A stretch of DNA of 53,245 nt. It comes from a virus. A program made the position numbers and the translations under genes. The DNA lies in the IMG/VR virus record IMGVR_UViG_3300032246_001650, positions 1 through 53,245 of that record. One strand, written 5' to 3'. Shown piece by piece: positions 2,284 through 19,573 of this stretch (positions within the stretch are counted from its first letter, which is position 1; the number at the start of each line of letters is the position of its first letter). The notes below the pieces were generated by a model. The model saw only the letters and a list, made by a program, of their open reading frames with translations, was not told the origin of the DNA and ran no database searches.

Positions 2284-2479
2284 TTTAGATAATGTAGATT
2301 TATTCTCTTTTATAGATGATTCAGTAAAAGAATTTTATGGAATTAATGAAGAGGAATATGTGTTTATTTTAGATAATGCTACAGATGAGGAAATTGATAT
2401 TTTATGTGAGTGTATTATAAGTGAAGAAGATATTAAAGATCAAGGTTTTCAAATAGTAAAAAAGTATATTAAAAAATGA
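2276..2479 (+). CDS. Small acidic hypothetical protein, 67 aa
   Basis: Overlaps the previous gene by 8 nt and the ThyA fragment by an ATGA-type junction, so it is probably translationally coupled. It is strongly acidic (EEEYVFILDNATDEEIDILCE) and probably helical. Acidic small phage proteins are often inhibitors or DNA mimics, but nothing specific supports that here. Confidence 0.6.
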   Translation: MNDLDNVDLFSFIDDSVKEFYGINEEEYVFILDNATDEEIDILCECIISEEDIKDQGFQIVKKYIKK

Positions 2480-2589
2480 ATCATTTAGATAAAGAATATC
2501 AACAATTACTTCAAGACATTATTGAGTTTGGAGTAGATAAAAATGATCGAACAGGGACTGGTACTAAGATTTCTTTTATTAACCACTAA
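2476..2589 (+). pseudogene. thyA: Orphan N-terminal fragment of thymidylate synthase
   Basis: 37 codons matching the start of ThyA: EYQQLLQDIIEFGVDKND followed by the phosphate-binding RTGTG motif, then a stop right after KISFINH. The intact ThyA at 3269 begins with a homologous but diverged stretch (YNNLLKDILENGIKKQTRNG). The fragment therefore looks like the original 5' end of thyA, cut off by insertion of the endonuclease gene between them. It keeps the canonical motif that the downstream gene has lost. Confidence 0.75.
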
Positions 2590-2618: not shown

Positions 2619-3290
2619 ATGATAGGAATATATAAAATCACAAATCCTGAAGGTAAAATATATATAGGACAATCTATTGATATAGATAGACGCTTTAAAG
2701 AATATAAACGATTACAAAAAAGAAGTGCTGGAAGAAAAATAATGAGTTCTCTTAAAAAATTTGGTTCTGAAAAACATACTTTTGAAATTATTGAAGAATG
2801 TCTAATAACACAATTACATGAAAGAGAATATTATTGGAAAAAATACTATGCATCAGTAGAAAATGGTTTAAATTGTGATTATTTTGATAATAGTGGAGGA
2901 CCTAGAAGTGAAGAAACAAAACGTAAAATTTCTGAAGGAGCTAAAGGTAAAAAACGGTCTGAAGAAACAAAACAAAAACTTAAAAAACCTAAAACAGAAG
3001 AACATAAACAAAATATAAGTAAATCAAAACAAAATATATCTGAAGAAACAAAACGTAAAATTTCTGAGGGTAAAAAAGGAAAAACACCTAATAGGGATTA
3101 TAAAAAATGGGCTAAAACAAGAACAAATCCTATTCTTCAATATGATTTAGATGGAAATTTTATTAGAGAATGGGAAGGAACAAAAGCTGCAGCTTTATAT
3201 TTAGGTTGTGATCCTACTACTATAACAGCAAATTTAAGAGGAATAACAAAAAAAGGATACGGTTTTATATGGAAAAGAAAAATAATTTAG
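2619..3290 (+). CDS. GIY-YIG homing endonuclease with NUMOD repeats
   Basis: 223 aa. The N-terminal GIY-YIG nuclease has GIY at residues 3-5, YIG at 15-17, and Arg24/Arg25 following. The middle holds repeated NUMOD3-type DNA-binding units (SEETKRKISEG, twice, with KQNISKSK). The C-terminus resembles NUMOD1 (PILQYDLDGNFIREWEGTKA). Such enzymes cut a specific site in an allele lacking them and spread by repair. It sits inside the 5' part of thyA and overlaps the intact thyA start by 22 nt. A weak TGTATATTTAT box lies just before its ATG. Confidence 0.9.
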   Translation: MIGIYKITNPEGKIYIGQSIDIDRRFKEYKRLQKRSAGRKIMSSLKKFGSEKHTFEIIEECLITQLHEREYYWKKYYASVENGLNCDYFDNSGGPRSEETKRKISEGAKGKKRSEETKQKLKKPKTEEHKQNISKSKQNISEETKRKISEGKKGKTPNRDYKKWAKTRTNPILQYDLDGNFIREWEGTKAAALYLGCDPTTITANLRGITKKGYGFIWKRKII

Positions 3291-4633
3291 ATCCACAATA
3301 TAATAATTTATTGAAGGATATTTTAGAAAATGGAATTAAAAAACAAACCAGAAATGGAGAAGTAATTTCAGTATTTGGAAGACAAATTCGACATAGTATG
3401 TCAGATGGGTTCCCTCTTTTAACAGGGAAAAAGATGTTTTTTAAAGGTATTATAACTGAATTATTATGGTTCTTGAAAGGTGAAACAAATATCAAATATT
3501 TAGTTGATAATGATTGTCATATTTGGGATGGTGATGCTTATAAGAACTATATGCAACAATACAATGTGGTAGATGCTGAGGAATATTCTAAAGGATATGA
3601 GGACCAATGTTGGGGATACCCTGTATTAGACCACGTTAAACCAACAACTGCTTCATATAAGCGAGGTCAAATAAATGCTTATTTAGAAGGTAAAGCTGAT
3701 AAACCTTTTTTTTATTTAACACAAGAAGAATTTATCAACAAAATTAAAACAGATGATAAGTTTGCTAAAAAGTGGGGTGAGTTAGGTCCTATCTATGGTA
3801 AGCAGTGGAGAAGTTGGGAGACTTTTACTTATGATGATTATGCAAATAGACCTAAATGGGTGAAGGATGATCCAATAGACCAAATTCAAAACCTAATCAA
3901 CGACCTTAAAACAAATCCAGACTCAAGACGATTGATGGTTAGTGCTTGGAATGTAGGTGAATTAGACCAAATGGTTCTCCCACCTTGTCATTATGGATTT
4001 CAAGTTTATACAAGAGAGTTGAGTTTGGATGAGAGAAATGAATTATTAAATAAAGTATTAAACCGCAACCATAAAAGAGAAAATTGTTTTAGTGATGAAG
4101 AATTTGAAAGGGAAACATTAAAAGATTGTAACACATTCAATATCCCAACACGAGCAATCTCTTTAATGTGGAATCAACGTTCAGTAGATACATTCTTAGG
4201 TTTACCATTCAACATTGCTTCTTATGGTTTATTACTTGAAATCATTGCTAAGGAAGTTAACATGGTTCCTGATCAGTTGATTGGTAATCTAGGTGATGTT
4301 CATCTGTATTCAAACCATATTGAACAAGCTAAAGAACAAATTGGTAGAGAATTAACAATCGATGAGAGAATGGATTGGTGGTTTGAAAATAAAAAACCAA
4401 ATAGAGATATTTGTGATCATGTTGACGAGCAATCACCTTACGGTAAAGGAGTTTATTTTGATTCTGTAGGAGTACCTAAAACAACAAGAGAACCATTCCC
4501 ATTACCTAAATTAATTATTAATTCCAATAATGAAATGAGAATAGGTGGAGGAATTTTTACTTATGTAAATACCGACTTTACTTTAGAAAATTATCAAGCA
4601 CATCCAGCAATTAAAGCCCCTTTATCTAACTAA
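3269..4633 (+). CDS. thyA: Thymidylate synthase (ThyA type), enlarged
   Basis: 454 aa against about 264 for E. coli ThyA; it methylates dUMP to dTMP with methylene-tetrahydrofolate. Visible motifs: YGKQWRSW (about 166-173), RR of SRRLMVSAWN (200-201), catalytic Cys240 in LPPCHYGF, and NQRSVDTFLGLPFNIASY. Extra length comes from insertions near 120-160, after Cys240 (KVLNRNHKRENC region) and near the C-terminus. The N-terminal phosphate-binding RTGTGT is replaced by KQTRNGEV. The start lies within the endonuclease gene and gives the homologous N-terminus, suggesting coupled translation. Confidence 0.93.
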   Translation: MEKKNNLDPQYNNLLKDILENGIKKQTRNGEVISVFGRQIRHSMSDGFPLLTGKKMFFKGIITELLWFLKGETNIKYLVDNDCHIWDGDAYKNYMQQYNVVDAEEYSKGYEDQCWGYPVLDHVKPTTASYKRGQINAYLEGKADKPFFYLTQEEFINKIKTDDKFAKKWGELGPIYGKQWRSWETFTYDDYANRPKWVKDDPIDQIQNLINDLKTNPDSRRLMVSAWNVGELDQMVLPPCHYGFQVYTRELSLDERNELLNKVLNRNHKRENCFSDEEFERETLKDCNTFNIPTRAISLMWNQRSVDTFLGLPFNIASYGLLLEIIAKEVNMVPDQLIGNLGDVHLYSNHIEQAKEQIGRELTIDERMDWWFENKKPNRDICDHVDEQSPYGKGVYFDSVGVPKTTREPFPLPKLIINSNNEMRIGGGIFTYVNTDFTLENYQAHPAIKAPLSN

Positions 4634-7645: not shown

Positions 7646-9097
7646 ATGAATCCACTATTATTAACGGATGGCTATAAAACAGGCCACCACCAACAATACC
7701 CAAAAGGAACCACTTTGGTTTATTCAAACTTCACTCCACGTTCAAATAAATATGCTCCTAAAGGATGTAATGAAGTAGTTGTGTTTGGCACACAAATGGT
7801 AATGCAACAATTACATGAAGCGTTTCAAAATGATTTCTTTAGTAGACCTAAAGATGAAGTGTGTGGAGAAATGAAACGTGAGTTGTCTATGTATTTAGGT
7901 ACTGATTATGATGTTTCACATTTTGAAGCATTACATGATTTAGGTTATTTGCCTATTTGTGTTAAAGCATTACCTGAAGGTACTAAAGTGCCTATGAAAG
8001 TTCCTGTATTAACTATCTATAATACAGTACCTGAGTTTTATTGGGTTACAAATTATTTAGAGACTATCTTGTCTAACTTGTTGTGGAAGCCAATGACATC
8101 AGCTACTATTGCTCATCAATATAGAAAAGTATTGACTAAATGGATGGAGAAAACAGACGCTGAAAGAGCATGGTTTATTGATTGGCAGGGCCATGACTTC
8201 TCAATGAGGGGTATGGATTCAGTTGATGCTGTTATTAGTTCAGGTTTAGGTCACTTAACTTCATTCTTGGGATCAGATTCATTACCTACTATTTATGGTG
8301 CTAGAAAGTATTATAATGCTGAAGGTATGGTATGTGGTTCTGTAAACGCTACTGAACATAGTGTAATGTGTGCTGGTGGTAAAGAAGATGAAGTAGAAAC
8401 ATTCAGAAGATTGTTAGAAACTTATCCAACAGGTATTTTATCAGTTGTATCTGATACTTGGGACTTATGGAAAGTATGTACTGAGCATGTAGTTACTTTG
8501 AAAGAAGAAATTATGGCTCGTAATGGTAAGTTGGTTATTCGTCCTGATAGTGGTGATCCGGTTGATATTATTTGTGGTGAATCTAATTCAAATGTAGCTA
8601 CCACACCACAAAATAAAGGTGTTATCCAATTACTTTGGGATGCATTTGGAGGAACAGTTAATGAACAAGGTTATAAAGTTCTTGATAGTCACATTGGAGC
8701 TATTTATGGTGATTCAATTACTATTGATAGAGCAGAAGAAATTTGTAAGCGTTTAGAAGCTAAAGGATTCGCTTCAACAAACGTAGTATTAGGTATTGGT
8801 TCATTTACTTACCAATATAACACTAGAGATACATTTGGATTTGCTATGAAAGCAACTTATGTAGAGGTAAATGGTGAAGGTAGAGAGATTTTCAAAGATC
8901 CTATTACTGATGATGGAACTAAAAAATCAGCAACTGGTTTGTTAGCTGTGTTTAGAGATGACAATAATGGTGCCTACCAGTTACATGACCATTGTGATTG
9001 GAATACTGAAGAAAAAGGTGAGTTACAAGTTATTTACAATAACGGTCATTTTAAAAATGTAACCACATTAGAGGAAATTAGAAACCGTTTGAAATAA
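7646..9097 (+). CDS. nadV: Nicotinamide phosphoribosyltransferase-like enzyme (NAMPT or Namat)
   Basis: 483 aa, matching NAMPT length (about 490). Family blocks: LLTDGYKTGHHQQYPKGT at the start, YSNFTPR, GMDSVDAVISSGLGHL, VVSDTWDLWKV, VIRPDSGDP (PRPP/phosphate binding), GIGSFTYQ and FAMKATYVEV. NAMPT joins nicotinamide and PRPP to give NMN. In NARP1 phages the homologue Namat joins nicotinamide to ADP-ribose-pyrophosphate and makes NAD+ directly. Its neighbour is the Prs-like gene and no NMN adenylyltransferase is seen in the window, which makes the NARP1 reading attractive but unproven. Confidence 0.92.
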   Translation: MNPLLLTDGYKTGHHQQYPKGTTLVYSNFTPRSNKYAPKGCNEVVVFGTQMVMQQLHEAFQNDFFSRPKDEVCGEMKRELSMYLGTDYDVSHFEALHDLGYLPICVKALPEGTKVPMKVPVLTIYNTVPEFYWVTNYLETILSNLLWKPMTSATIAHQYRKVLTKWMEKTDAERAWFIDWQGHDFSMRGMDSVDAVISSGLGHLTSFLGSDSLPTIYGARKYYNAEGMVCGSVNATEHSVMCAGGKEDEVETFRRLLETYPTGILSVVSDTWDLWKVCTEHVVTLKEEIMARNGKLVIRPDSGDPVDIICGESNSNVATTPQNKGVIQLLWDAFGGTVNEQGYKVLDSHIGAIYGDSITIDRAEEICKRLEAKGFASTNVVLGIGSFTYQYNTRDTFGFAMKATYVEVNGEGREIFKDPITDDGTKKSATGLLAVFRDDNNGAYQLHDHCDWNTEEKGELQVIYNNGHFKNVTTLEEIRNRLK

Positions 9098-9117
9098 GAT
9101 ACATACTTGACAATGAG

Positions 9118-9152
9118 GGGTTTGGCTATCCAAACCCTTCTTGTTATATTTA
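9118..9152 (+). promoter_or_regulatory. Terminator-promoter hybrid
   Basis: GGGTTTGG (9118-9125) and CCAAACCC (9130-9137) form an 8-bp hairpin with a CTAT loop, followed by T-rich sequence. The same bases supply TTTGGC (9121) and TGTTATATTTA (9142) of the phage promoter, 21 nt apart. It would end NAMPT-operon transcripts and start the CCA-enzyme transcript. Confidence 0.7.
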
Positions 9153-9175
9153 TCTCATAATAAGAAATAAAAGTT

Positions 9176-9898
9176 ATGCCAAGAATTTATAAAGTAGGTG
9201 GTTGTGTTAGAGATAGATTATTAGGGATTGAATCTAAAGACATTGATTTTACATTTGTAGTTGATGATGTAAAAATGAGTGTTGATGATGGTTTCGTTTC
9301 AATGTACAAGTATTTGTCTGATGAAGGATTTACTATTTTCTTATCAACACCTGAATGTTTTACTATTAGAGCTAAGTTTCCTATGAACCACCCAAATGAA
9401 GGTATGGTAGCTGATTTTGTATTAGCTCGTAAAGAAGTAGGATATGTTGAAGGCACTAGGAGACCAATTTTAGAATTAGGTACTTTAGAAGATGATTTAA
9501 GACGTAGAGACTTTACCTTAAATGCTTTAGCTGAAGATGAAGATGGAAACATTATAGATTTGTTTGGTGGAATTGAAGATTTGAAACGTGGTTATTTAAG
9601 AACTCCACTACCATGTACTGATACTTTTAATGATGATCCACTTAGAATTTTAAGAGCAATTCGTTTTTGTATTACTAAAGGATTTTGGATTGGACCAGCA
9701 ATGGATGGCATTATTCAAGATTATGATTATGAAACTAAAATGCATGTAGTGTCTATGCAGCGTATTAGAGAAGAATTGTATAAGTGTTTCAAACATGATA
9801 CTCTAAAAACACTTAAAACACTACATGAGTATCCAGCATTGAGAAATTATATTTTCCAATCATGTGAGTTGTGGTTGAAGCCAACTTTTGAACAATAG
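9176..9898 (+). CDS. cca: CCA-adding enzyme / tRNA nucleotidyltransferase (class II)
   Basis: 240 aa, shorter than bacterial enzymes (about 400) but complete through the catalytic and neck regions: VGGCVRDRLLG (7-17), metal-binding DIDF (22-25), RRRDFTLNALA (about 109-119) and DPLRILRAIRF (about 147-157), RIREEL. It adds or repairs the 3' CCA of tRNAs. The tRNA genes at 38.9-45.3 kb do not encode CCA, so they need this activity from phage or host. The tail and body domains are reduced. Confidence 0.9.
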   Translation: MPRIYKVGGCVRDRLLGIESKDIDFTFVVDDVKMSVDDGFVSMYKYLSDEGFTIFLSTPECFTIRAKFPMNHPNEGMVADFVLARKEVGYVEGTRRPILELGTLEDDLRRRDFTLNALAEDEDGNIIDLFGGIEDLKRGYLRTPLPCTDTFNDDPLRILRAIRFCITKGFWIGPAMDGIIQDYDYETKMHVVSMQRIREELYKCFKHDTLKTLKTLHEYPALRNYIFQSCELWLKPTFEQ

Positions 9899-9899
9899 G

Positions 9900-9932
9900 T
9901 TTGGCTTCATCACCCTCAAATGTTATATTAAT
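9900..9932 (+). promoter_or_regulatory. Phage promoter
   Basis: TTTGGC at 9900 and TGTTATATTAA at 9921; serves the phosphoesterase gene. Confidence 0.75.
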
Positions 9933-9945
9933 ATAAATAAGAGTT

Positions 9946-10605
9946 ATGAAAATCGTATTAGAAAAAGGACAAAGATTATTTTTTACTAGTGATACTCATT
10001 ATGGTCACTCTAATATTTGTAGTGGTACTACAAAATGGGTTGGCGCTGAAAATATGACTCGTAAATTCAGTTCATTAGATAGAATGAATGATGAATTAGT
10101 ATTTTGGATTAATCAAAGAGTAGGTGAGAATGATATTTTATTTCATTTAGGTGATTGGTCATTTGGTGGGTTTGAAAATATTGAAGAATTCAGAAACCGT
10201 ATAGTATGTAAGAACATTCATTTGGTACTCGGTAACCATGACCATCATATTGAGCGTAATAAAGACGGTATACAACGTTTATTTTCATCAGTAAACCATT
10301 ATGTTGAATTAGATGTTAGACGTCCATCTGAATTTGCTAAAGGTAGAATGGATAAGTTTAACTTTGTTTTAATGCATTACCCAATCGCTAGTTGGAACAA
10401 TATGAATAGTGGAGTAATGCATTTACATGGTCACGTTCATTTACCTCCACACCAAAGAATTGCTGAAGGTAGAGCAATGGATGTAGGTGTAGATGGTAAT
10501 GGTTTAGAGCCTATTAGTTTGAATGAAGTTTATGCCTTACTTAATGATAGACCAATTGACAAACTTTGCCTTCCTCGTGACCATCATGTTAAAAGGTTAA
10601 ATTAA
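9946..10605 (+). CDS. Calcineurin-like metallophosphoesterase
   Basis: 219 aa with the full motif order: FFTSDTHYGH (D-x-H, about 14-22), FHLGDWSFGG (GDxxxxG), LVLGNHDHH (GNHD), MHYP and GHVHLPP (GHxH). The HEG-like start DTHYGHSNI is typical of phage phosphoesterases. Such enzymes hydrolyse phosphomonoesters, diesters or 2',3'-cyclic phosphates. Placement between the CCA enzyme and the kinase/ligase genes hints at an RNA-end function, which is inference. Confidence 0.88.
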   Translation: MKIVLEKGQRLFFTSDTHYGHSNICSGTTKWVGAENMTRKFSSLDRMNDELVFWINQRVGENDILFHLGDWSFGGFENIEEFRNRIVCKNIHLVLGNHDHHIERNKDGIQRLFSSVNHYVELDVRRPSEFAKGRMDKFNFVLMHYPIASWNNMNSGVMHLHGHVHLPPHQRIAEGRAMDVGVDGNGLEPISLNEVYALLNDRPIDKLCLPRDHHVKRLN

Positions 10606-10615
10606 TTGATATTTA

Positions 10616-10714
10616 TTACCGAATGCCGGGTCGCAGCGGTAATAATTTATTAAAAAAACTAAATACCCAAGCGTAAGTAAGGAACTGCGACCCTGAAAGC
10701 GTCTTGGGTTTTTT
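10616..10714 (+). ncRNA. Structured RNA with predicted kissing loop, ending in an intrinsic terminator
   Basis: Hairpin 1 is TTACCG (10616-10621) with CGGTAA (10637-10642); its 15-nt loop contains GGGTCGCAG (10628-10636). Hairpin 2 is ACCCAAG (10665-10671) with CTTGGGT (10703-10709), followed by six T; its loop contains CTGCGACCC (10685-10693), a perfect 9-nt complement of the hairpin 1 loop. This can be a kissing-loop/pseudoknot RNA or two alternative folds controlling the terminator. No known riboswitch class was recognised. It lies between the phosphoesterase and an HNH gene. Confidence 0.7.
10665..10714 (+). terminator. Intrinsic terminator
   Basis: ACCCAAG/CTTGGGT stem (7 bp) with a long loop, then TTTTTT at 10709-10714. 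It is the 3' part of the kissing-loop element. The HNH gene starts 5 nt later with no visible promoter of its own. Confidence 0.65.
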
Positions 10715-10718
10715 ATTT

Positions 10719-11282
10719 ATGAAAAAATGTAGTAAATGTCAAGTTGAGAAATCTTTATCTGAATTTAAAGGAAAAAGTTATTATTGTACCCCATGTAATC
10801 AAGAATATAGGAAACAATACAGAATTAATAACCCTTCATATATGAAAGAGTATTTTATATCTAATAGAGATAAAATTACTATCAAAGAAAAAGAATGGAG
10901 GGAAAACAATAAAGACAGATTTAATACATATCATAATAGTTATCATAAAGAAAGAAGAAAAAACCCTTTACATAAATTACATAAATTTATAGCAAGTGGA
11001 ATTTATCGAGGTATAAAATTTGGAAGTAAAGACACCACCAGCTTAGAAATTTTAGGATTAAACTCATGGGAAGAATTTAAAATATATCTTGAGAACCAAT
11101 TTGTTGAAAACATGAGTTGGAATAATTATGGGAAAGGTAATAACAATAACGTATGGCATATTGATCATATTATCCCTATTAGTTCGGCAACTACCTTAGA
11201 AGAAATAAAAAAATTAAATCATTATACTAATTTAAAACCAATGTGGTGTAGTGATAATATAAGAAAAGGAAATAAATTCTAA
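10719..11282 (+). CDS. HNH homing endonuclease
   Basis: 187 aa. The N-terminal zinc finger CSKCQVEKSLSEFKGKSYYCTPC is common in phage HNH enzymes; basic linker follows; the HNH core is near the C-terminus (WHIDHIIPISS, then NLKPMWCSDNIRKGNK). The start at 10719 is preferred over an ATG 15 nt upstream that lies in the terminator T-run. Free-standing, probably mobile; no split gene is apparent next to it. Confidence 0.88.
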   Translation: MKKCSKCQVEKSLSEFKGKSYYCTPCNQEYRKQYRINNPSYMKEYFISNRDKITIKEKEWRENNKDRFNTYHNSYHKERRKNPLHKLHKFIASGIYRGIKFGSKDTTSLEILGLNSWEEFKIYLENQFVENMSWNNYGKGNNNNVWHIDHIIPISSATTLEEIKKLNHYTNLKPMWCSDNIRKGNKF

Positions 11283-11290
11283 AAAACAGA

Positions 11291-11322
11291 TTTGGCTTTT
11301 TAAAAAATAAATATTATATTAA
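11291..11322 (+). promoter_or_regulatory. Phage promoter
   Basis: TTTGGC at 11291, TATTATATTAA at 11312; leads to the AGAGTTATG start at 11337. Confidence 0.7.
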
Positions 11323-11336
11323 TATAAATAAGAGTT

Positions 11337-11546
11337 ATGAAAGCACATTTAAAAACAATAGGAATATTAACAGCAATGGTATTATTTATTTACATTGGGT
11401 TTTTATTTCCAAAAGTAATAGCAGCATTGGGGGCATTGATTGCTTTAACAGCAGTATACTTAATAATTTATCTTTATATAAAAGATAATGATGATGAAGA
11501 TGAATTATCAGGTCCATTTAATGCTGGCGGAAGGGAAAGAGACTAA
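11337..11546 (+). CDS. Two-pass membrane protein, 69 aa (paralogue pair, first)
   Basis: MKAHLKTIGILTAMVLFIYIGF then a second hydrophobic stretch, ending in an acidic/Gly tail. The N-terminal pattern MKxHLK and the spacing of the two segments match the next gene, so the two look like a tandem duplication. Function unknown. Confidence 0.65.
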   Translation: MKAHLKTIGILTAMVLFIYIGFLFPKVIAALGALIALTAVYLIIYLYIKDNDDEDELSGPFNAGGRERD

Positions 11547-11547
11547 T

Positions 11548-11718
11548 ATGAAAAATCATTTAAAAGCAATAATAGCATGTTTGTTAATTTTAGGATTTAT
11601 TTACTGTGCTGTTATATACACAATATTAACCTTAACAATTGTAGTATGTACATTTATAGGGATAATGTTTTATGGTTTTGTTTATGAATGGGTAAATGAT
11701 ACTAGGGGAGATGATTAA
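11548..11718 (+). CDS. Two-pass membrane protein, 56 aa (paralogue pair, second)
   Basis: Starts 1 nt after the previous stop with MKNHLKAIIACLLILGFIY, parallel to its neighbour. A longer in-frame start upstream would lie inside the previous gene. Two hydrophobic segments. Function unknown. Confidence 0.6.
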   Translation: MKNHLKAIIACLLILGFIYCAVIYTILTLTIVVCTFIGIMFYGFVYEWVNDTRGDD

Positions 11719-11719
11719 T

Positions 11720-12118
11720 ATGAAAACACTTATAATTTTAAGAGGATTACCAGGTTCAGGTAAGTCAACATTAGCTAAAATGTTAGTTGGTGATAAAGAA
11801 TATCGCCACAAAGAAGCTGACATGTATTTTATTGATGGGGAAGATAATTATAAATTTGAACCTTCAAAAATAAAGGATGCTCATAAATGGTGCCAAGAAG
11901 AAGTTGATTTTCTTATGAAATACTCACATTCCCCTGTTGTAGTATCAAATACATTCACTCAAGAATGGGAAATGGAAGTATATTATAAATTAGCTGAACA
12001 ATATGGTTATAGAGTTCATTCATTGATAGTGGAGAATAGACATAAAGGTATTAATGAACATAATGTGTCTGATGAGACTATGGAAAAAATGAGAAAAAGA
12101 TTTGAGATTAAATTATGA
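11720..12118 (+). CDS. P-loop kinase, polynucleotide-kinase-like
   Basis: 132 aa. Walker A GLPGSGKST at residues 9-17; EADMYF and FIDGEDNYKF resemble the substrate-side DxD/E region; NRHKGINEHNV near the C-terminus matches the lid motif of T4-Pnkp/NEDD4BP2-like kinases. These enzymes phosphorylate 5'-OH polynucleotide ends. An RNA ligase follows 1.4 kb downstream, so a 5'-end healing role is likely. The start is 1 nt after the previous stop. It could also act on another small substrate. Confidence 0.78.
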   Translation: MKTLIILRGLPGSGKSTLAKMLVGDKEYRHKEADMYFIDGEDNYKFEPSKIKDAHKWCQEEVDFLMKYSHSPVVVSNTFTQEWEMEVYYKLAEQYGYRVHSLIVENRHKGINEHNVSDETMEKMRKRFEIKL

Positions 12119-12291
12119 CACCAAAAGAAAAAGCAGAAGAGCTATTTGACAATTTCTTTAATTTATACCCAAACCAAGATGCTTATTTTATTGCCAAGCA
12201 ATGTGCATTGATTGCAGTTGATGAGATAATAAAAATACTACCTCACCCTGATTATTGGCAAGAAGTAAAACAAGAAATAGAAAAATTATGA
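12115..12291 (+). CDS. Small conserved phage-type protein, 58 aa
   Basis: Coupled by ATGA overlaps on both sides. MTPKEKAEELFDNF followed by AKQCALIAVDEII and YWQEVKQEIEKL is a pattern I recognise from many uncharacterised Bacteroidota phage and prophage ORFs. Helical; function unknown. Confidence 0.7.
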   Translation: MTPKEKAEELFDNFFNLYPNQDAYFIAKQCALIAVDEIIKILPHPDYWQEVKQEIEKL

Positions 12292-12554
12292 GCGAAGATT
12301 ATTCACCATATTGTCCTATATGTTCAGGTTGTGGAGAGGATGGGTGTTGTTCAGCAGTACATTGTGAACAACATCCTGATGGTAGTTACTGCCAAACCTA
12401 CCTACAAGATTTAAAACATGCTTACATGATGAATGAATGGTGGTATGAAAATGTTTATGATACTTTATCACCTGAACTAAAAGCTAAATGTGATGAGGAG
12501 TTTGATAAGGCTTATGATTATTGTTACAAAGAGCTTGGCTCCTCAGAACAATAA
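12288..12554 (+). CDS. Cys-rich, probably zinc-binding protein, 88 aa
   Basis: The start ATG overlaps the previous TGA. The N-terminal half has CPICSGCGEDGCCSAVHC, enough ligands for one or two zinc sites; the C-terminal half is helical. The promoter for the next gene lies within its last codons. Not recognised. Confidence 0.6.
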   Translation: MSEDYSPYCPICSGCGEDGCCSAVHCEQHPDGSYCQTYLQDLKHAYMMNEWWYENVYDTLSPELKAKCDEEFDKAYDYCYKELGSSEQ

Positions 12555-12565
12555 TGTTATATTTA
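12534..12565 (+). promoter_or_regulatory. Phage promoter overlapping a coding end
   Basis: CTTGGC at 12534 and TGTTATATTTA at 12555; the -33 box is inside the preceding CDS. Confidence 0.65.
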
Positions 12566-12581
12566 ATGTATAATAAAAGTT

Positions 12582-12842
12582 ATGAAAAAGATATTATTAG
12601 TACTAAGCATTGTAGCATTAGTTTCATGTAACAAACGAGGTGAAACGTATTACGAACCTCAAGATTTTATTGAAATAAATGGTAAAGTTTACAAACTTGT
12701 AAGTGTTGTACCTGCAGATAACTGTCATCCTATTTGGATAATGTATCCAAAAGACACAGCAGAAAAAATGCCTACAGTGTTAAACTATGAAGTACAAGAA
12801 GGTAAAACAACCAGAAACCAATCACTAATTAAAATTGATTAA
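12582..12842 (+). CDS. Small lipoprotein, 86 aa
   Basis: Signal peptide MKKILLVLSIVALVSC with lipobox LVSC (Cys16), so it is lipidated and probably envelope-located. The mature part is about 70 residues with no known domain. Envelope lipoproteins of phages sometimes act in superinfection exclusion; this is only a possibility here. Confidence 0.7.
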   Translation: MKKILLVLSIVALVSCNKRGETYYEPQDFIEINGKVYKLVSVVPADNCHPIWIMYPKDTAEKMPTVLNYEVQEGKTTRNQSLIKID

Positions 12843-12848
12843 CAAGGT

Positions 12849-12941
12849 ATGGAAAATCAAAACAGCTGTTGCTTTATAGCAAGAATAGGAGAAGTTAAAC
12901 CAATTGAAGGAGCAGATTTTGAAATTCCGCAATATTTATAG
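12849..12941 (+). pseudogene. Orphan N-terminal fragment of the RNA ligase gene
   Basis: 30 codons (MENQNSCCFIARIGEVKPIE...) parallel to the first 25 residues of the intact ligase at 13511 (MENNNSVCFVARINEVKEIQ), then a frame loss and stop. An HNH endonuclease gene lies between the fragment and the intact copy. It is the same arrangement as the ThyA fragment at 2476. Confidence 0.72.
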
Positions 12942-12954
12942 GAAAATAAGAAAT

Positions 12955-13521
12955 ATGAATCCTATAAAAAACGAAATTGGAAATAAATACGGAAAGTTAA
13001 CTGTTATTAAACAAGGAACAACTACTAAAAATGGAACTATAAAATGGTTATGTTCATGTGAATGTGGAAATGAAACTGAAGTTATTGGTTATTCTTTAAG
13101 AAGTGGAATTACTACTTCATGTGGGTGTAATAGAGGAAGAAAAGAAGAATTTGAAGGTTCTCATGTTTATAAAAGATCATATGGAATATTAAAAAGATCA
13201 TCTAAACAAAATAATAGAACTTTAGAATTATCTTTTGAAGAATGGAAGAAAATTGTACAACAAAATTGTTATTATTGTGGTTCTGATCCTTATAATAAAC
13301 GTTATGCTTATAGTAGTAAAAGATATAATAAGGGTATAGAACAAGATAATATAGAAATTTTTAATGGAGTAGATAGAATAGATTCATCTAAAGGTTATAC
13401 TAAAGAAAATGTAGTATCATGTTGTGTAATGTGTAATAGAATGAAATCAGATTTCAATCAACAAGATTTTTTTAAACAAATTAAATTAATTTATAATAAT
13501 ATATTAAATAATGGAAAATAA
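12955..13521 (+). CDS. HNH homing endonuclease
   Basis: 188 aa. The N-terminal part (IGNKYGKLTVIKQG, then CSCECGNETEV and TTSCGC) is the DNA-binding module typical of phage HNH/AP2-like endonucleases. The core has CYYCG, GVDRIDSSKGYTKENVVSCCVMCN as the HNH region. The ATG at 12955 gives the canonical N-terminus; a longer frame overlaps the fragment. It overlaps the ligase gene by 11 nt. Confidence 0.88.
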   Translation: MNPIKNEIGNKYGKLTVIKQGTTTKNGTIKWLCSCECGNETEVIGYSLRSGITTSCGCNRGRKEEFEGSHVYKRSYGILKRSSKQNNRTLELSFEEWKKIVQQNCYYCGSDPYNKRYAYSSKRYNKGIEQDNIEIFNGVDRIDSSKGYTKENVVSCCVMCNRMKSDFNQQDFFKQIKLIYNNILNNGK

Positions 13522-14689
13522 TAACTCAGTGTGTTTTGTAGCACGTATTAATGAAGTAAAAGAGATTCAAGGAGCAGACAATATCGAATTAGGTGTTATT
13601 GGAGGCTGGAATTGTATTATCAAGAAAGGTAGTTATAAAGTAGATGATTTAGTTATTGTAGCAACTACCGATGCTGTGATTCCTCAAGAATTATCAGATG
13701 CAATGAACGTAACTAATTACTTACGTAAAGGTCAACGTGTACGTACTGTTAAGTTGAGAGGTGTTTATTCTGAATGTTTAATCATTCCTATTGGTTTTAT
13801 TCCTGACAAATATCGTTATGAAGGAGCTGATTGTATGGAGTTGATGAATATCTTCAAATACGAACCACCAGCAGTTCAAGTACAATTAGCATCAGGTCGT
13901 AAAATGAAATACCACCAAAATCCTAACTTTGGTATTTACTATAAGTTCCCAAACATTAAAAATGTTAATGGAATGTTTAATGAAACTGATGAAGTAGAGG
14001 TAACACGTAAAATACACGGCACCAATAGCCGTTACGGTATTGTTAAAAAACGTAAGTTATCTATTTGGGATAAAGTAAGACGTTTCTTTGGAGACAAATG
14101 GGTTGAGTATGAGTATGTTTATGGTTCACATAATGTAGAAAAAGGATCTGATTCACAAGGTTTCTATGATACAGATGTATGGAGAACAGTAGCTGAAAAA
14201 TACCAAATCAGAGAACAATTATGGGACTTATTTAAACGATACAAAGAATACTACGGTATTGAAGAAGGAATTGTTATCTATGGAGAAATTTATGGCCCAG
14301 GTATTCAAAAGAACTATGATTATGGTTTGAAAGAAATTAAATTTGCTGGATTTGATGTTACTATTAATGGTGATTATTGTAGTGTTGGTAAACGTCTTGA
14401 TATTATTAAAAATGTTATGCAATTACCTCATGTACCTATTTTGTATGGAGGTTTATGGTCACAAGAAATACAAGATAAATTTGTGTTTAATAACTTTATT
14501 GAAGTACAAGAACTAACCATCACAGATTTTAGGGAAGAAAATATAGTAGGTGTTTTAAAAACAACTAAAGTACCTCATGAAGGAATTGTTATTAAAGCAC
14601 TTGATGGTAGTAGAAAGAAAGTAGCAAAAGTAATTAATCCGGACTACTTAATCTACGGAGAAAAACACAACGTAGGAGATTCACACTAA
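13511..14689 (+). CDS. RNA ligase (DRB0094/Rnl5-like) with N-terminal OB-type domain
   Basis: 392 aa. Nucleotidyltransferase motif I KIHGTN at 167-172 (Lys167 is the adenylation site), motif III/IIIa EEGIVIYGEIYGPGIQ near 251-266, motif IV HEGIVIKA near 361 and a motif V lysine in KVAKVI. The first 110 residues (CFVARINEVKEIQGADNIE) resemble the OB/tRNA-binding-like domain seen before some ligase cores. It would seal nicked RNA, and with the kinase, CCA enzyme and receiver-like protein forms a candidate tRNA-repair set. Confidence 0.88.
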   Translation: MENNNSVCFVARINEVKEIQGADNIELGVIGGWNCIIKKGSYKVDDLVIVATTDAVIPQELSDAMNVTNYLRKGQRVRTVKLRGVYSECLIIPIGFIPDKYRYEGADCMELMNIFKYEPPAVQVQLASGRKMKYHQNPNFGIYYKFPNIKNVNGMFNETDEVEVTRKIHGTNSRYGIVKKRKLSIWDKVRRFFGDKWVEYEYVYGSHNVEKGSDSQGFYDTDVWRTVAEKYQIREQLWDLFKRYKEYYGIEEGIVIYGEIYGPGIQKNYDYGLKEIKFAGFDVTINGDYCSVGKRLDIIKNVMQLPHVPILYGGLWSQEIQDKFVFNNFIEVQELTITDFREENIVGVLKTTKVPHEGIVIKALDGSRKKVAKVINPDYLIYGEKHNVGDSH

Positions 14690-14712
14690 AATATAAAAAA
14701 CATTTGAAGAAG

Positions 14713-14747
14713 GGGCTTGGCTTTGCCAAGCCCTTTTGTTATATTTA
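14713..14747 (+). promoter_or_regulatory. Terminator-promoter hybrid
   Basis: GGGCTTGGC (14713-14721) pairs perfectly with GCCAAGCCC (14725-14733) around a TTT loop and is followed by TTTT; the same segment continues as TGTTATATTTA at 14737. Ends the ligase transcript and starts the next. Confidence 0.75.
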
Positions 14748-14765
14748 ATGTATAATAAAAATAAG

Positions 14766-15377
14766 ATGATCGATAATTTAGAACTAATTAAACCGTTACT
14801 TAACTTTGAAGATAAAGGTGACTTTTATATGCTTTATGTATTAAAACGTAAAAAAGATCAACCTGAAGGTGAAAAAGATAATCATCAATCAGTAAGAACT
14901 ATTCGCACTTATTGTATTCGTTCAATTGAACAGTTAGAGAAACGTTATGATGAAATTAAAATGATGTGTGAAATGTTTAAAGCAAGAGCTTATATTCATG
15001 TTCAAAAACAAAATCATAGAGACGTTTCATTAAATATGATGATTGCTTTAGCTCAACGTATTCAAGATGGTAATTTAGAACAACAATCATTATTTGATTC
15101 AGTAGTAGGTCAATTAAAAACATTAGAGAAAAGATGGATTGTTGATGTTGATATGAAAGATATGGAAGTGGTTATGAAAATTGCAAAATTAATTTATCAT
15201 TTACGACCTGAAGGTCCTAAAGTTGAGACAATTATTCCTACTAAAAATGGTTATCATTTAATCACTAATAGGTTTGATGTAAAGGAGTTTAATAAGATTA
15301 TGTCATTACAAGGTGATGTACCTGATATAGTTAAAAAGAATCCTACTCTTCTTTATTTACCATCTAGTTTAGATTAA
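14766..15377 (+). CDS. Conserved phage-type protein, 203 aa, function unknown
   Basis: The ATG at 14766 follows the leader; an ATG 30 nt upstream lies in the promoter region. Helical N-terminal half (SIEQLEKRYDEIKMMCEMF), then WIVDVDMKDMEVVMKIAKLI and IIPTKNGYHLIT...FDVKEF, KNPTLLYLP. The VDVD and TKNGYHLIT blocks recall primase-like (AEP) phage proteins, but I cannot confirm that. Confidence 0.65.
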   Translation: MIDNLELIKPLLNFEDKGDFYMLYVLKRKKDQPEGEKDNHQSVRTIRTYCIRSIEQLEKRYDEIKMMCEMFKARAYIHVQKQNHRDVSLNMMIALAQRIQDGNLEQQSLFDSVVGQLKTLEKRWIVDVDMKDMEVVMKIAKLIYHLRPEGPKVETIIPTKNGYHLITNRFDVKEFNKIMSLQGDVPDIVKKNPTLLYLPSSLD

Positions 15378-15394
15378 CTGATATTTGAAAAGTA

Positions 15395-15425
15395 AATTTT
15401 AATTTCCTAAAAATTCATATATTTA
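15395..15425 (+). promoter_or_regulatory. Weak promoter-like site
   Basis: TCATATATTTA at 15415 with only T-rich sequence in the -33 position; may express the endonuclease gene. Confidence 0.3.
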
Positions 15426-15441
15426 TAATAAAATATAGAAT

Positions 15442-16221
15442 ATGAATTATAAATTACATTATGATAAGTTAATAGAAAAAGCTAAAAACAGAGTCCTAAA
15501 TAAACATGAATATAATGAAAAACACCATATTATTCCTAGATGTTTAGGAGGAACAAATGATAAAAGTAATATAGTAAAATTATTACCTAAAGAACATTAT
15601 ATAGCTCATTTATTATTATTTAGAGAATATCCTTCAAACCAAAAATTGGCTTATGCTTTTTGGATGATGTGTAATGGAAATAAAAAAGATAAAAGAACTT
15701 ATAAAATCTCAGGAAGATTATATGAAGAAGTACGAACTAAATTTATAGAAATTCTTAAAGAAAGAGAACCTACATTTAAAGGAAAAAATCACACTATTGA
15801 AACTAAAGAAAAAATTTCTAAATCAAAAAAAGGAAAATTACCTCCAGTAACAGGAAAAAAATATTCTCAAGAGTCTAAAGATAAACAAAGTAAAGCTAGA
15901 TTAGGTAAAAAAGATAGTTTAGAAACAAGAATGAAAAAATCTAAATCAATGACTGGGATAAAAAAATCAAAAGAACATGCTTTAAAAATATCTTTAGCTC
16001 AAAAAGGAGAAAATAATAACATGTATGGTGTAACTGGATATAATAATAAAAGATCAAAAATAGTATTTCAATATAACACGGATGGGGATTTTATTAAAGA
16101 ATGGCCTAATGCTAGAATAGCTGCTCAAGAATTAAATTTAAATTACACTGCTATAAATGATTGTTGTAGAGGAAAACAAAAAACATCTCAAGGTTTTATT
16201 TGGAGATACAAAGAAATTTAA
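15442..16221 (+). CDS. HNH homing endonuclease with NUMOD modules
   Basis: 259 aa. N-terminal HNH-like core (NEKHHIIPRCLGGTNDKSNIVKLLPKEHYIAHLLL), middle NUMOD3-like repeats rich in Lys (TKEKISKSKKG, SKDKQSKARLG), C-terminal NUMOD1-like segment (VFQYNTDGDFIKEWPNARIAAQEL). Same module order as the GIY-YIG enzyme at 2619 with a different nuclease head. Free-standing between two operons. Confidence 0.88.
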   Translation: MNYKLHYDKLIEKAKNRVLNKHEYNEKHHIIPRCLGGTNDKSNIVKLLPKEHYIAHLLLFREYPSNQKLAYAFWMMCNGNKKDKRTYKISGRLYEEVRTKFIEILKEREPTFKGKNHTIETKEKISKSKKGKLPPVTGKKYSQESKDKQSKARLGKKDSLETRMKKSKSMTGIKKSKEHALKISLAQKGENNNMYGVTGYNNKRSKIVFQYNTDGDFIKEWPNARIAAQELNLNYTAINDCCRGKQKTSQGFIWRYKEI

Positions 16222-16228
16222 AAACAAA

Positions 16229-16260
16229 TTTGGCTTTTTAAAAAACTATTCGTATATTTA
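16229..16260 (+). promoter_or_regulatory. Phage promoter
   Basis: TTTGGC at 16229 and TCGTATATTTA at 16250; AGAGTTATG start follows at 16283. Confidence 0.7.
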
Positions 16261-16282
16261 AGTATAATAAAAAATAAGAGTT

Positions 16283-16528
16283 ATGACAAACGAAACACAA
16301 CAAACAGCAGTTGAGCAATTGGCTCAAGAGTTATTAACTAAGTATCATATTAAAATAGATGCTTATCCTGAATTTAAACAAGCCAAAGAAATGGAGAAGG
16401 AGCAAATGATTGAATTTTATGTAAAAGGATGTGATGATACTCGTAAGATTAATGAAAATTATGGATTAGAATATGATAAAACATATGGGTTACACTTTTA
16501 CAACGAAACATACGGAGATTTAAAATGA
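16283..16528 (+). CDS. Member of the QAKEMEKE small-protein family, 81 aa
   Basis: MTNETQQTAVEQLAQEL...QAKEMEKEQMIEFY...YNETYGDLK. The same plan recurs at 16525, 23968 and 27672. I recognise the pattern from uncharacterised Bacteroidota phage and prophage ORFs. Helical; function unknown. Its stop overlaps the next start (ATGA). Confidence 0.7.
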   Translation: MTNETQQTAVEQLAQELLTKYHIKIDAYPEFKQAKEMEKEQMIEFYVKGCDDTRKINENYGLEYDKTYGLHFYNETYGDLK

Positions 16529-16890
16529 AAATTTATCAGCACAAACATACAAAAGTATTTATGAGTCAAAATGATTACAACCACTTATCAACACGAGAAA
16601 AAGATGAAATGGTATTGTACAATTCAAACTACAAATTCAATAAAATGACAAACGAAACAAAACAAACAACATTAGAACTATTCGCAATAGCACTTTATGA
16701 AAAAGGATTGCTAAAAGGTAATGGTGATGAAATTCAAGCATTATTACAAGAACATAAAGAAATAGATATGAGGCAACACTTAGATACTTGGCTTCAAGGT
16801 AGAGTAGAAATGAAGCGTAATTTTGATGTTATAAGTAAAGGGAAAACATTTGAAGAATTTTGGGAAGAAACATACGGAGGTAACAAATGA
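16525..16890 (+). CDS. Fused member of the same family, 121 aa
   Basis: Residues 1-40 (MKIYQHKHTKVFMSQNDYNHL) form an extra module; residues 41-121 start again with MTNETKQTTLELFAIAL and end ETYGGNK like the family members. An internal ATG at 16645 could give the short form. The last codons contain GGAGGT, a Shine-Dalgarno-like stretch. Confidence 0.65.
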   Translation: MKIYQHKHTKVFMSQNDYNHLSTREKDEMVLYNSNYKFNKMTNETKQTTLELFAIALYEKGLLKGNGDEIQALLQEHKEIDMRQHLDTWLQGRVEMKRNFDVISKGKTFEEFWEETYGGNK

Positions 16891-16900
16891 AAACCTCCTG

Positions 16901-16932
16901 TTTGGCTCTCGTATATCCAGATGTTATATTTA
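16901..16932 (+). promoter_or_regulatory. Phage promoter with CCTC upstream element
   Basis: TTTGGC at 16901, TGTTATATTTA at 16922, preceded by AACCTCCTG. Nearly the same sequence (GTATATCCAGATGTTATATTTA) occurs at 29112-29133. Confidence 0.75.
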
Positions 16933-16959
16933 TCAGGTAATAAAAAATAAATAAAGGTT

Positions 16960-17211
16960 ATGTATAGAATTAACGAAAATTTAAGTAAAGAAGGAATACT
17001 ATCATTAAATATAAATGAATCTCAAACAATTATATTTAAAGATAGAAAATATTATATTGAAAATCCTAAAGGAAAAGAAAAAGTATTTGCTTTTTCAGAT
17101 CCAGAATTAAAACAAATAGTTAAAATAAATAATAAAACATTAATGTTTAATATTAAAGATTTAGAAGATATTTTAATAAATAAACAGTTATATTTTAAAA
17201 ATGAAAAATAA
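16960..17211 (+). CDS. Hypothetical protein, 83 aa, with duplicated N-terminus
   Basis: The first 11 residues (MYRINENLSKE), its leader and its promoter match those of the 29157 gene, after which the two proteins are unrelated. The remainder is beta-rich and Lys-rich (ESQTIIFKDRKYYIENPKGKEKVF). Looks like an expression cassette placed on a different body. Function unknown. Confidence 0.65.
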   Translation: MYRINENLSKEGILSLNINESQTIIFKDRKYYIENPKGKEKVFAFSDPELKQIVKINNKTLMFNIKDLEDILINKQLYFKNEK

Positions 17212-17243
17212 GCTTGGGAAACTAAGTTTTTTTGTTATATTAA
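17212..17243 (+). promoter_or_regulatory. Terminator-promoter hybrid
   Basis: CTTGG-GAAA-CTAAG hairpin (about 17213-17226, one G-T pair) followed by seven T that run into TGTTATATTAA. The -33 box is only CTTGGG, so promoter strength is uncertain. Confidence 0.55.
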
Positions 17244-17267
17244 CCTTATAAAAAAAAAAAATTATCT

Positions 17268-17480
17268 ATGGAAAGATTTGCAATTAAACACAAACCAACA
17301 GGAAAGTTCTTACATGAAGATGAAGGAGGTACATGGTTAATAGAAGAATCAGATAGTTTTATTACCTTTGGTGATAAAAAACAAGCTGATGAAATATTTA
17401 GTTATTATTGTGAAAATGATGTTATTGAAACAGAAAATGGTGATTTTAACATCAATGAATTTGAAGTAACAAAATTATAA
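17268..17480 (+). CDS. Hypothetical protein, 70 aa
   Basis: MERFAIKHKPTGKFLHEDEGGTW... then DKKQADEIFSYYC; the pattern recalls small phage proteins that describe a residue-rich beta/alpha fold, not named. Acidic. Confidence 0.6.
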   Translation: MERFAIKHKPTGKFLHEDEGGTWLIEESDSFITFGDKKQADEIFSYYCENDVIETENGDFNINEFEVTKL

Positions 17481-17486
17481 AAACAG

Positions 17487-17519
17487 TTTGGAAGACTAAG
17501 AAATAGATGTTATATTAAT
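17487..17519 (+). promoter_or_regulatory. Phage promoter
   Basis: TTTGGA at 17487 and TGTTATATTAA at 17508. Confidence 0.65.
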
Positions 17520-17542
17520 ATTATAAGAAAAAATAAAAAGTT

Positions 17543-17725
17543 ATGCCTCCAGAAGATTATTATGTAACAACAATCCATATTTCAATGGATGAATTTCAAA
17601 ACATTTTTCCATGGTTTGAAAATCTAACAGACGGAATGCCTGTTGAAGAACCTAAAGCAAAACGTGGTAGAAAACCTAAAGCACATCGTGTGACAGAACA
17701 AACAATTGAAATGAAACAAGCTTAA
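17543..17725 (+). CDS. Small protein with AT-hook-like motif, 60 aa
   Basis: Acidic/aromatic N-terminal half, then KAKRGRKPKAHR at about 39-50, which matches the AT-hook core GRKP flanked by basic residues. Binding to AT-rich DNA is plausible in this genome. Otherwise unrecognised. Confidence 0.6.
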   Translation: MPPEDYYVTTIHISMDEFQNIFPWFENLTDGMPVEEPKAKRGRKPKAHRVTEQTIEMKQA

Positions 17726-17728
17726 AAT

Positions 17729-17947
17729 ATGATAAAAAATATATTATTAGTAACTTTATTCTTGATGATTGTTGTGTTAACTGTATATTTTAATATATTT
17801 GGTGTACAACTTATTGTTAGTTTATTAAATGCGGCGGATAATTTTCAATTATTAGTAGGAGCTGTTATTATGATTATAACAGTTGCTGTTGATGTTTATG
17901 CTTCATTGTTTATTATTAAAGAAATTAAAGAAATTATAAAATGGTAG
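17729..17947 (+). CDS. Two-pass membrane protein, 72 aa
   Basis: Starts 3 nt after the AT-hook gene. Hydrophobic segments at about 3-24 and 42-66. Overlaps the next gene by 7 nt; the pair precedes the SPFH gene and may form a membrane complex with it. Confidence 0.6.
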   Translation: MIKNILLVTLFLMIVVLTVYFNIFGVQLIVSLLNAADNFQLLVGAVIMIITVAVDVYASLFIIKEIKEIIKW

Positions 17948-18372
17948 TACTATTTATTTTAATTATAATGGCAGCATCAATCGCTGGGTTAATATATTGG
18001 ATGCAGTTTGATGTGCATCTAAATAGTAAAAAAGAACTTATTATTAAAGATGGATTGGTTAAAGAATTGATTGAAAAAGCAGTTAATAATCCTGATCCTG
18101 ATTCAATTATTATTCATGATGATGGTAAACATATTACTATGGGTAGAACATTAATAAAAGGTGAAGGATATAATGTATGTTTTTGGTTTCCATATAAAAT
18201 AACTATTTTATCTAAAGATTTTAATGACCGAGTAACAAATGATGATTGGGGATATGATGTAGGTTATATCAAACGTTACAGTAAAGATTATGCTTTAGTT
18301 AAAAAACTAATGGTACCAAAAGCAGATAACATTGAACAAAAACAAAGACAAAAATTAAATCTAAATAAATAA
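17941..18372 (+). CDS. Membrane-anchored hypothetical protein, 143 aa
   Basis: One N-terminal membrane segment (about 3-22), then a soluble domain (ELIEKAVNNPDPDSIIIHDDGKHITMGRTL, YNVCFWFPYKI). No family recognised. Immediately upstream of the SPFH gene (4 nt gap), suggesting a shared function. Confidence 0.6.
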   Translation: MVVLFILIIMAASIAGLIYWMQFDVHLNSKKELIIKDGLVKELIEKAVNNPDPDSIIIHDDGKHITMGRTLIKGEGYNVCFWFPYKITILSKDFNDRVTNDDWGYDVGYIKRYSKDYALVKKLMVPKADNIEQKQRQKLNLNK

Positions 18373-18376
18373 AAAA

Positions 18377-19228
18377 ATGAGTACATTTTCAAGAGTAGCA
18401 ATCGCGTTCGGAGTAATTGCGTTGTTAGTATTATCAGTAATTGGAGTTGAGCCTATTGATGCCGGTCACGTAGGTGTTAAAGTAAATTTGATCGGAACAG
18501 GTAAAGGAGTAGACAATGCTACTGAAGTTACTGGTTGGGTGTTTTACAATCGTTTTACTACTAAGGTAGTTGAGTTTCCAACTTTTATTCGCCATAAGGA
18601 ATATAAGAAAGAAGGTGAGATTGATGAGTCATTTGTAATTAACTCTAAAGACGGTTCAGAGTTTCACGTATCACCTTTACTAAACTATTCAGTTAAGCGT
18701 GAAAAAGTACCTTATATCTTTACTAAATACAGAGTTGAATTAGATCAAATTGAACAGGGTTTCTTAAAAACAGCAGTTTATGATGCGTTTAGAGTAGTAG
18801 CTAATAGTTATACAGCTGATGAATTGATTAGTAATAGAGAATTGTTTGAAAATAAAGTTAGATTGAATCTAGAAAAACATTTGACTCCTGAAGGATTTAT
18901 TTTAGCTCAATTTACTTCAAATCTAATTTATCCAGAAACATTTAAACGCGCTATTGAAGCTAAAAACAACGCGGTTCAAACAGCATTAACTGCCGAGAAT
19001 CAAGTTAAAACAGCTGAAGCACAAGCACGTATTAAAGTAGCAACTGCTGAAGGTAACGCACAAGCAATGTTGACAAGTGCTAAAGCTGAAGCTGAATCAA
19101 ACAGATTGAGACAACAAACATTGACACCTATGTTGTTACAACAAATGTGGGTTGAAAAATGGAATGGTGAATTGCCAAGTACAGTGTTAGGTCAAGGTAG
19201 TAATACATTCTACGGATTAAATAAATAA
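18377..19228 (+). CDS. SPFH/prohibitin-like membrane protein
   Basis: 283 aa. Membrane segment at about 7-25, SPFH/band 7 domain from about 30 to 200 (VGVKVNLIGTGKGV, VEFPTFIRHKEY, VINSKDGSEFHVSPLLNYSV), then an Ala/Glu/Gln-rich coiled coil (AENQVKTAEAQARIKVATAEGNAQA) and conserved tail. Family members form cage-like membrane oligomers that organise domains or regulate proteases. In a phage it could stabilise membranes or block host proteases; unproven. Confidence 0.85.
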   Translation: MSTFSRVAIAFGVIALLVLSVIGVEPIDAGHVGVKVNLIGTGKGVDNATEVTGWVFYNRFTTKVVEFPTFIRHKEYKKEGEIDESFVINSKDGSEFHVSPLLNYSVKREKVPYIFTKYRVELDQIEQGFLKTAVYDAFRVVANSYTADELISNRELFENKVRLNLEKHLTPEGFILAQFTSNLIYPETFKRAIEAKNNAVQTALTAENQVKTAEAQARIKVATAEGNAQAMLTSAKAEAESNRLRQQTLTPMLLQQMWVEKWNGELPSTVLGQGSNTFYGLNK

Positions 19229-19236
19229 TAAATAAT

Positions 19237-19512: not shown

Positions 19513-19537
19513 AAAAATAATTAAAACATTTTCAAAT

Positions 19538-19573
19538 GAGGCTTGGTTATCCAGGCCTCTTTTGTTATATTAA
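19538..19573 (+). promoter_or_regulatory. Terminator-promoter hybrid, leaderless
   Basis: GAGGCTTGG (19538-19546) pairs with CCAGGCCTC (19551-19559, one G-T pair) around TTAT, then TTTT and TGTTATATTAA. The next ATG (19579) follows the -7 box within about 8 nt. Confidence 0.75.

Follow-up and report, generated by a model that had tools for sequence, protein, structure and literature searches.

The window, a virus record of 53,245 bases, carries an RNA ligase gene whose 5′ end is present twice, with the gene for an HNH endonuclease set between the two copies. Very probably the HNH protein is a free-standing homing endonuclease with the RNA ligase gene as its target, and its gene moves as a cassette together with a new 5′ end for that target. 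An earlier note on this DNA had described the order of ligase fragment, HNH gene and intact ligase, with an overlap of 11 nt between the last two. The order and the overlap are confirmed, with the corrections that the fragment is diverged (68% nucleotide identity) rather than recent, and that its homology to the ligase covers 23 of its 30 codons. The locus is composed of the following features:

12282..12578, + strand: left flank, comprising the end of the gene called at 12255-12554 and a promoter-like repeat; 89% nucleotide identity to L004:4345-4641 and L034:4344-4640
12582..12842, + strand: 86-aa lipoprotein-like ORF, directly before the stub
12849..12917, + strand: RNA ligase codons 1-23, read as the resident 5′ end remaining as a stub; 21/23 amino acids identical to the ligase start of L001
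12918..12954, + strand: end of the stub ORF (stop codon 12939-12941) plus the nuclease leader; matches no ligase significantly
12955..13521, + strand: HNH homing endonuclease gene, 188 aa, with its stop codon inside the ligase start
13511..13579, + strand: RNA ligase codons 1-23, read as the imported 5′ end; similar to another ligase clade
13580..13750, + strand: ligase codons 24-80; bootstrap shows no clade preference
13751..14689, + strand: RNA ligase body, read as resident; Q-clade-like in every bin, Pfam RNA_ligase E 3.7e-15

The stub ORF (12849-12941, MENQNSCCFIARIGEVKPIEGADFEIPQYL and a stop codon) consists of 23 ligase codons, 7 unrelated codons and the stop. Its tail (GAD|FEIPQYL) was considered as an internally deleted remnant of the native D-AVIPQEL codons, a candidate that was rejected because the match is not significant. 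The nuclease is a separate ORF with its own start and stop, beginning most likely at the ATG at 12955, 14 nt past the stop codon of the stub, while a longer, TTG-started version runs from 12904. It overlaps the intact ligase (13511-14689, 392 aa) by exactly 11 nt (ATGGAAAATAA), placing the nuclease stop codon within the first 11 nt of the ligase. The protein combines an N-terminal CxCG zinc-finger-like module with a C-terminal HNH or endonuclease VII-like domain, and is a member of a homing family by its matches to phrog_374 (HNH, E 4.2e-22), to phrog_1035 (endonuclease VII, E 8.6e-17) and, over residues 87-167, to the PacI chain 3ldy (E 2.3e-5). The neighboring gene encodes a phage RNA ligase with PHA02142 OB fold and RNA_ligase domains. 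Homology between this ligase and the stub is confined to codons 1-23, where 17 of 23 residues and 47 of 69 nucleotides are identical. A tblastn search of the ligase against its own record recovers the stub at E 2.2e-5, and among all ATG-anchored same-strand repeats scanned in the window the stub scores 91, against 49 for the next repeat and 35 for the highest null. The resemblance is therefore beyond chance.

Comparison with relatives indicates which of the two 5′ ends is native to the locus. A search of IMG/VR returned 34 loci, in 33 of which the ligase start is present. L004 and L034 lack the nuclease, and in both the ortholog of the gene at 12255-12554 (89% nucleotide identity) is followed by one small gene and then the ligase, so that the left flank of the window (12282..12578) corresponds by orthology to the stretch two genes before the ligase in these loci free of homing endonuclease genes (HEGs). 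An unrelated 113-aa ORF there occupies the position of the 86-aa ORF of the window. The stub sits at the position of the ligase start in L004 and L034, and the match to L004 extends 15 nt before the ATG. Its residues are of the type found in one group of ligases, the Q group (L001, L002, L003, L024 and others). In contrast, codons 1-23 of the intact start lean towards a second group, P (L005, L007, L018 and others), with 79% identity to the P clade versus 71% to the Q clade (bootstrap 0.93), while codons 81-392 are Q-like in all bins, with a bootstrap fraction for P of at most 0.001. This combination of a Q-type stub, a P-leaning start and a Q-type body indicates that stub and body are resident and that the start lying between nuclease and body is foreign. 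The difference in P/Q affinity between stub and intact start (bootstrap 0.014, sign-flip 0.037) is modest, since the comparison has no more than 69 nt to draw on, and its p values are descriptive, with the two groups picked post hoc from the alignment. Co-conversion of the target sequence beside the nuclease is nevertheless supported in the window (p 0.014-0.037), and the right crossover most likely falls within ligase codons 24-80 (13580..13750). The earlier note had proposed an endonuclease that ends in a fresh 5′ end of its target; the 5′ end now in use, distinct from the first, is indeed joined to the nuclease, both here and at thyA. What needed stating was the polarity, with the stub as the resident end and the intact start as the imported one. 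The principle of replacing one end of the target is known from fungi, with 3′ polarity (PMC3630166, PMC7282813).

The strongest support for joint movement of the nuclease and a substitute 5′ end for its target comes from isolated phages. Among named relatives, gp160 of Arthrobacter phage Mimi is by a wide margin closest to the window HNH protein (41.6% identity, E 7e-42; next match 2e-26), and the gene after gp160 also encodes an RNA ligase, with an overlap of 14 nt. The sibling phages Racecar and Talia1610 share the gene order of Mimi without the HNH gene. On the left, Mimi is 90-97% identical to both siblings as far as the insertion point. Within the ligase, identity to these nuclease-free siblings is 53-55% over codons 4-23, 73-85% over codons 24-43, 92-98% over codons 44-63 and 93-100% in all bins from codon 64. 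The GC content of the HNH gene and ligase codons 1-30 is 43-46%, as opposed to 55% in the remaining gene. As the divergence is limited to the 5′ end of the ligase next to the HNH gene, and is accompanied by this lower GC content, the HNH gene and the ligase 5′ end arrived jointly in Mimi, a clear case of co-conversion with the nuclease. Mimi has no stub, its left junction lying in intergenic DNA. Mimi and Racecar form a cultivable pair suited to a direct test of homing with 5′-end replacement.

The same window contains a second case, at thyA:

2476..2589, + strand: stub (MNHLDKEYQQLLQDIIEFGVDKNDRTGTG...) read as the resident 5′ end of thyA, including a degraded remnant of FPLLTTKK; 84% nucleotide identity to the intact thyA start of L044
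2619..3290, + strand: GIY-YIG homing endonuclease gene with NUMOD3 and NUMOD1 motifs (Pfam)
3269..4633, + strand: intact thyA with a 5′ end read as imported, overlapping the nuclease gene by 22 nt (Pfam Thymidylat_synt)

The cassette of nuclease and thyA start is conserved at 84-90% nucleotide identity in L045, L046, L085 and L050 and at about 82% in L048 and L049, and the same 22-nt overlap is found in at least three distinguishable lineages. L050 has a stub of its own, whereas the other five loci carry the cassette without an N-terminal stub, the FPLLT remnant being kept in L048 and L049. Between the window and L050 the cassette is 90% identical up to position 3545 and thyA beyond that point 74%, and the cassette has therefore moved independently of the remaining gene. 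L050 comes from the same contig as L004, in which the thyA cassette is present and the ligase cassette absent, so that the two cassettes were acquired independently. Native thyA reads FPLLTTKK and the cassettes read FPLLTGKK, FPLLTCKR or FPLLTCKK, with a degraded copy of the native site persisting to the left of the thyA nuclease. This codon change would fit a recoded target, by analogy with the WHO elements of yeasts considered below; no obvious recoding of the ligase target was seen in the window. The two cassettes are also joined to their targets in different ways. The thyA ATG lies inside the WKR codons of the nuclease, so the new start codon was seemingly donated by the nuclease gene, while at the ligase the ATG belongs to the target itself, relatives conserving MEN, and the stop codon of the nuclease is borrowed from the target. 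These start and stop anatomies are probably related.

Two copies of a gene start on either side of a nuclease could also have arisen if the ligase 5′ end had simply been duplicated in tandem and an unrelated nuclease gene had then landed between the copies. The earlier note had named the discovery of stub and ligase start together, without the HNH gene, as the observation that would point to this. Such an arrangement was sought in relatives without success: each of the 33 HEG-free IMG/VR loci has a single ligase start, without the window's HNH gene in front of it, and no stub occurs among the 79 ligase loci of a second, overlapping search. Further, the two copies are just 68% identical in nucleotides and each is nearer to a different clade, the arrangement is repeated at thyA and in L031 (described below), and the second 5′ end of Mimi clearly came with the nuclease; duplication is therefore quite improbable. 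Replacement of the whole gene, in which the nuclease was inserted with a complete foreign ligase and the stub is the sole remainder of the resident gene, would account for a resident-type stub and an intact gene behind the nuclease. It would not account for ligase codons 81-392 being of the resident clade in all bins, nor for the 93-100% identity of the Mimi ligase to its nuclease-free siblings from codon 64, and we regard it as unlikely, if less so than duplication.

Phage nucleases of this kind are often located in group I introns (PMC3943268), which would make the stub exon 1 and the nuclease intronic, with the beginning of exon 2 lying inside the ligase. However, a cmscan of window positions 1-20000 found no Rfam intron at E values up to 1, leaving the nuclease gene without recognizable intron RNA around it, and the ligase reading frame has a complete 5′ end of its own, which makes an intron the least probable of these alternatives. 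Because the stub-bearing ligase cassette is known from one contig only, with no further IMG/VR carriers of a window-type HNH gene 5′ of a ligase found, this particular case might be a private event or an assembly error, and in a metagenomic contig a chimera of two related phages has to be considered. We think a chimera highly improbable, given that the same architecture is present in the independent contigs L050 and L031 and, without a stub, in the isolate genome of Mimi, and that the left flank is colinear with L004 and L034.

The preferred reading is thus a cassette composed of the nuclease and a new target 5′ end, with the nuclease stop codon within the first ligase codons. The arrival of the nuclease together with the 5′ end (Mimi, thyA), the resident stub, the lack of a detectable intron and the interlocked stop and start can be read from the sequences. 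The proposed route is as follows. Cutting or nicking by the nuclease would take place in the 5′ coding region of a ligase allele that lacks the nuclease, probably close to the conserved codons GADNIE...GWN. A co-infecting phage would then supply the cassette as repair template, the right crossover falling within the ligase, so that the recipient acquires the donor 5′ end; this acquisition is shown by the Mimi alignments and supported by the mosaicism in the window. The left end could be joined in either of two ways: by homology upstream of the gene, in which case the resident 5′ end is lost, as may have happened in Mimi, or inside the coding sequence, in which case a stub would remain, as in the window ligase, thyA and L031. 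The new 5′ end would restore the reading frame without splicing and presumably escape recutting; the imported thyA codons differ at the conserved site, with TGKK or TCKR in place of TTKK. Because the nuclease stop and the gene start overlap, loss of the nuclease would be expected in most cases to harm the target gene. A selfish nuclease can in this way invade the 5′ coding end of a useful gene with neither an intron nor destruction of the gene, since it brings the missing piece with it. This may explain some of the short gene stubs beside phage nucleases, mosaic enzyme N-termini and overlapping nuclease and target genes.

To gauge how widespread the arrangement is, HEGs were surveyed as samples of best-matching relatives, not as a census. 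Among GIY-YIG and other HEG relatives (106 testable) the two window cases were recovered together with L050, a new and clear case in L031 and a weak one in L144; two surveys of HNH relatives (79 and 32 testable) returned only the window case. L031 provides a third target gene, with a stub (MRKYVDRLVQEWQSHGKIIIGVDFD), a GIY-YIG nuclease and a 148-aa gene overlapping it by 25 nt (score 103), and no other relatives of this target gene were found. In L144 (2873-4409) the stub MSNRHSALQ...QRSNEWYK and a GIY-YIG nuclease precede a YqaJ recombinase gene starting MSNRHKVLE; its score of 49 is at about the 99th percentile of the null, and it is retained as a plausible, weak case. Two further candidates were rejected, L123 as tandem NTase-like paralogs and L177/L178 because the score is at null level and the stretch is part of the nuclease ORF itself. 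Of the roughly 200 HEGs that could be tested, 4-5 represent distinct cases. The arrangement of stub, nuclease and gene thus recurs, involving two families of nuclease and three or four targets, yet it is a minority route. The earlier suggestion of two cases with different nuclease families is borne out, with HNH at the ligase and GIY-YIG at thyA, and of the proposed general, intron-free strategy the second adjective holds and the first does not. Whether these cases form a distinct, recurrent class of phage cassette seems to us slightly less than an even proposition: such a class would combine a nuclease with a replacement 5′ end through an interlocked stop and start, would have arisen independently in the HNH and GIY-YIG families, with RNA ligase, thyA and further genes as targets, would repeatedly swap the N-termini of phage enzymes between lineages, and would protect itself in that deletion of the nuclease beheads the target.

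Intronless homing by free-standing nucleases is established in phage T4, where SegF (gene 56), SegG (gene 32) and MobE (nrdB) bring about cutting and co-conversion of neighboring genes (PMC2988022, which also mentions mobE of Aeh1). The window nuclease resembles these in its position beside the target, its lack of an intron, its presence or absence between close phages, the co-conversion of target sequence, the overlapping reading frames and the polycistronic setting. The T4 examples are located between genes and cut at a distance of hundreds of bases or more (PMC2988022), whereas the window nuclease lies against or within the coding start of its target and the resident 5′ end can persist as a stub. 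In belonging to a homing family, lacking an intron or intein, being present in some relatives and absent from others, and co-converting its target, it matches a free-standing phage homing endonuclease.

Replacement of one end of a target is known from fungi. Mobile ORFs of fungal mitochondria (Allomyces atp6; Glomus atp6, atp9, cox2 and nad3) carry a foreign 3′ end of their target (PMC3630166), and share with the phage cassettes the resulting hybrid gene and a native remnant that clusters with the resident lineage. WHO elements at FBA1 of yeasts likewise home without splicing, bringing a replacement 3′ end, leaving fragments of the old end and making the allele resistant (PMC7282813). Both fungal systems replace the 3′ (C-terminal) end, with LAGLIDADG nucleases in the Glomus cases and an intein-zinc finger protein in WHO, and reside in mitochondrial and nuclear genomes respectively; the phage cassettes replace the 5′ end with HNH or GIY-YIG nucleases. 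Cleavage has been demonstrated for WHO. The window carries a foreign target end at both ligase and thyA and a native end as a remnant (12849-12917), but neither the 3′ polarity nor the LAGLIDADG or intein-derived nuclease of these elements. By analogy, then, the phage cassettes would work like the fungal mobile ORFs and WHO elements without being members of either. They combine both known themes, free-standing phage nucleases and target-end replacement, here at the 5′ end. No report of a 5′-end version in phages was found in the literature searched, which excluded most subscription papers, so that absence is not proven.

Nuclease genes may also be inserted in phage coding sequences without an intron, as with mobE in nrdA of Aeh1 and in other split phage genes, where the target stays split. 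The window case shares the intronless insertion in coding sequence and differs in that the target is restored by the imported end. A split RNA ligase of the same group occurs in L032 (3193-6971), where about 2.6 kb separate ORF 3193-3888, directly followed by a GIY-YIG nuclease gene, from ORF 6456-6971, and where no restored gene is present. At thyA, the gene is interrupted or split at several positions in L071, L081, L082, L083, L088 and L089, and L061, L063, L064 and L074 (1757-1864) contain a second stretch resembling thyA codons 130-169, about 1.2 kb upstream of the intact gene.

Other nuclease genes are found near RNA ligases. The window has two more free-standing ones close to the ligase, an endonuclease VII-like gene (10704-11282) and a NUMOD3/HNH gene (15442-16221), for the latter of which no target stub stood out in the survey. 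In L354, L355, L357, L358, L359 and L363 an RNA ligase gene is followed, 61-88 nt downstream, by a nuclease-like gene or ORF piece with the same CxCG-type of N-terminal module, that of L355 continuing into a domain unlike HNH, and the CxCG module may be linked to ligase targeting. Finally, in the GIY-YIG loci L091-L170 and the window, 44 of 111 nuclease genes have ATATTTAT in the 70 nt before them, as against 41 of 413 other genes; this sequence may be a promoter that the nuclease gene brings along.
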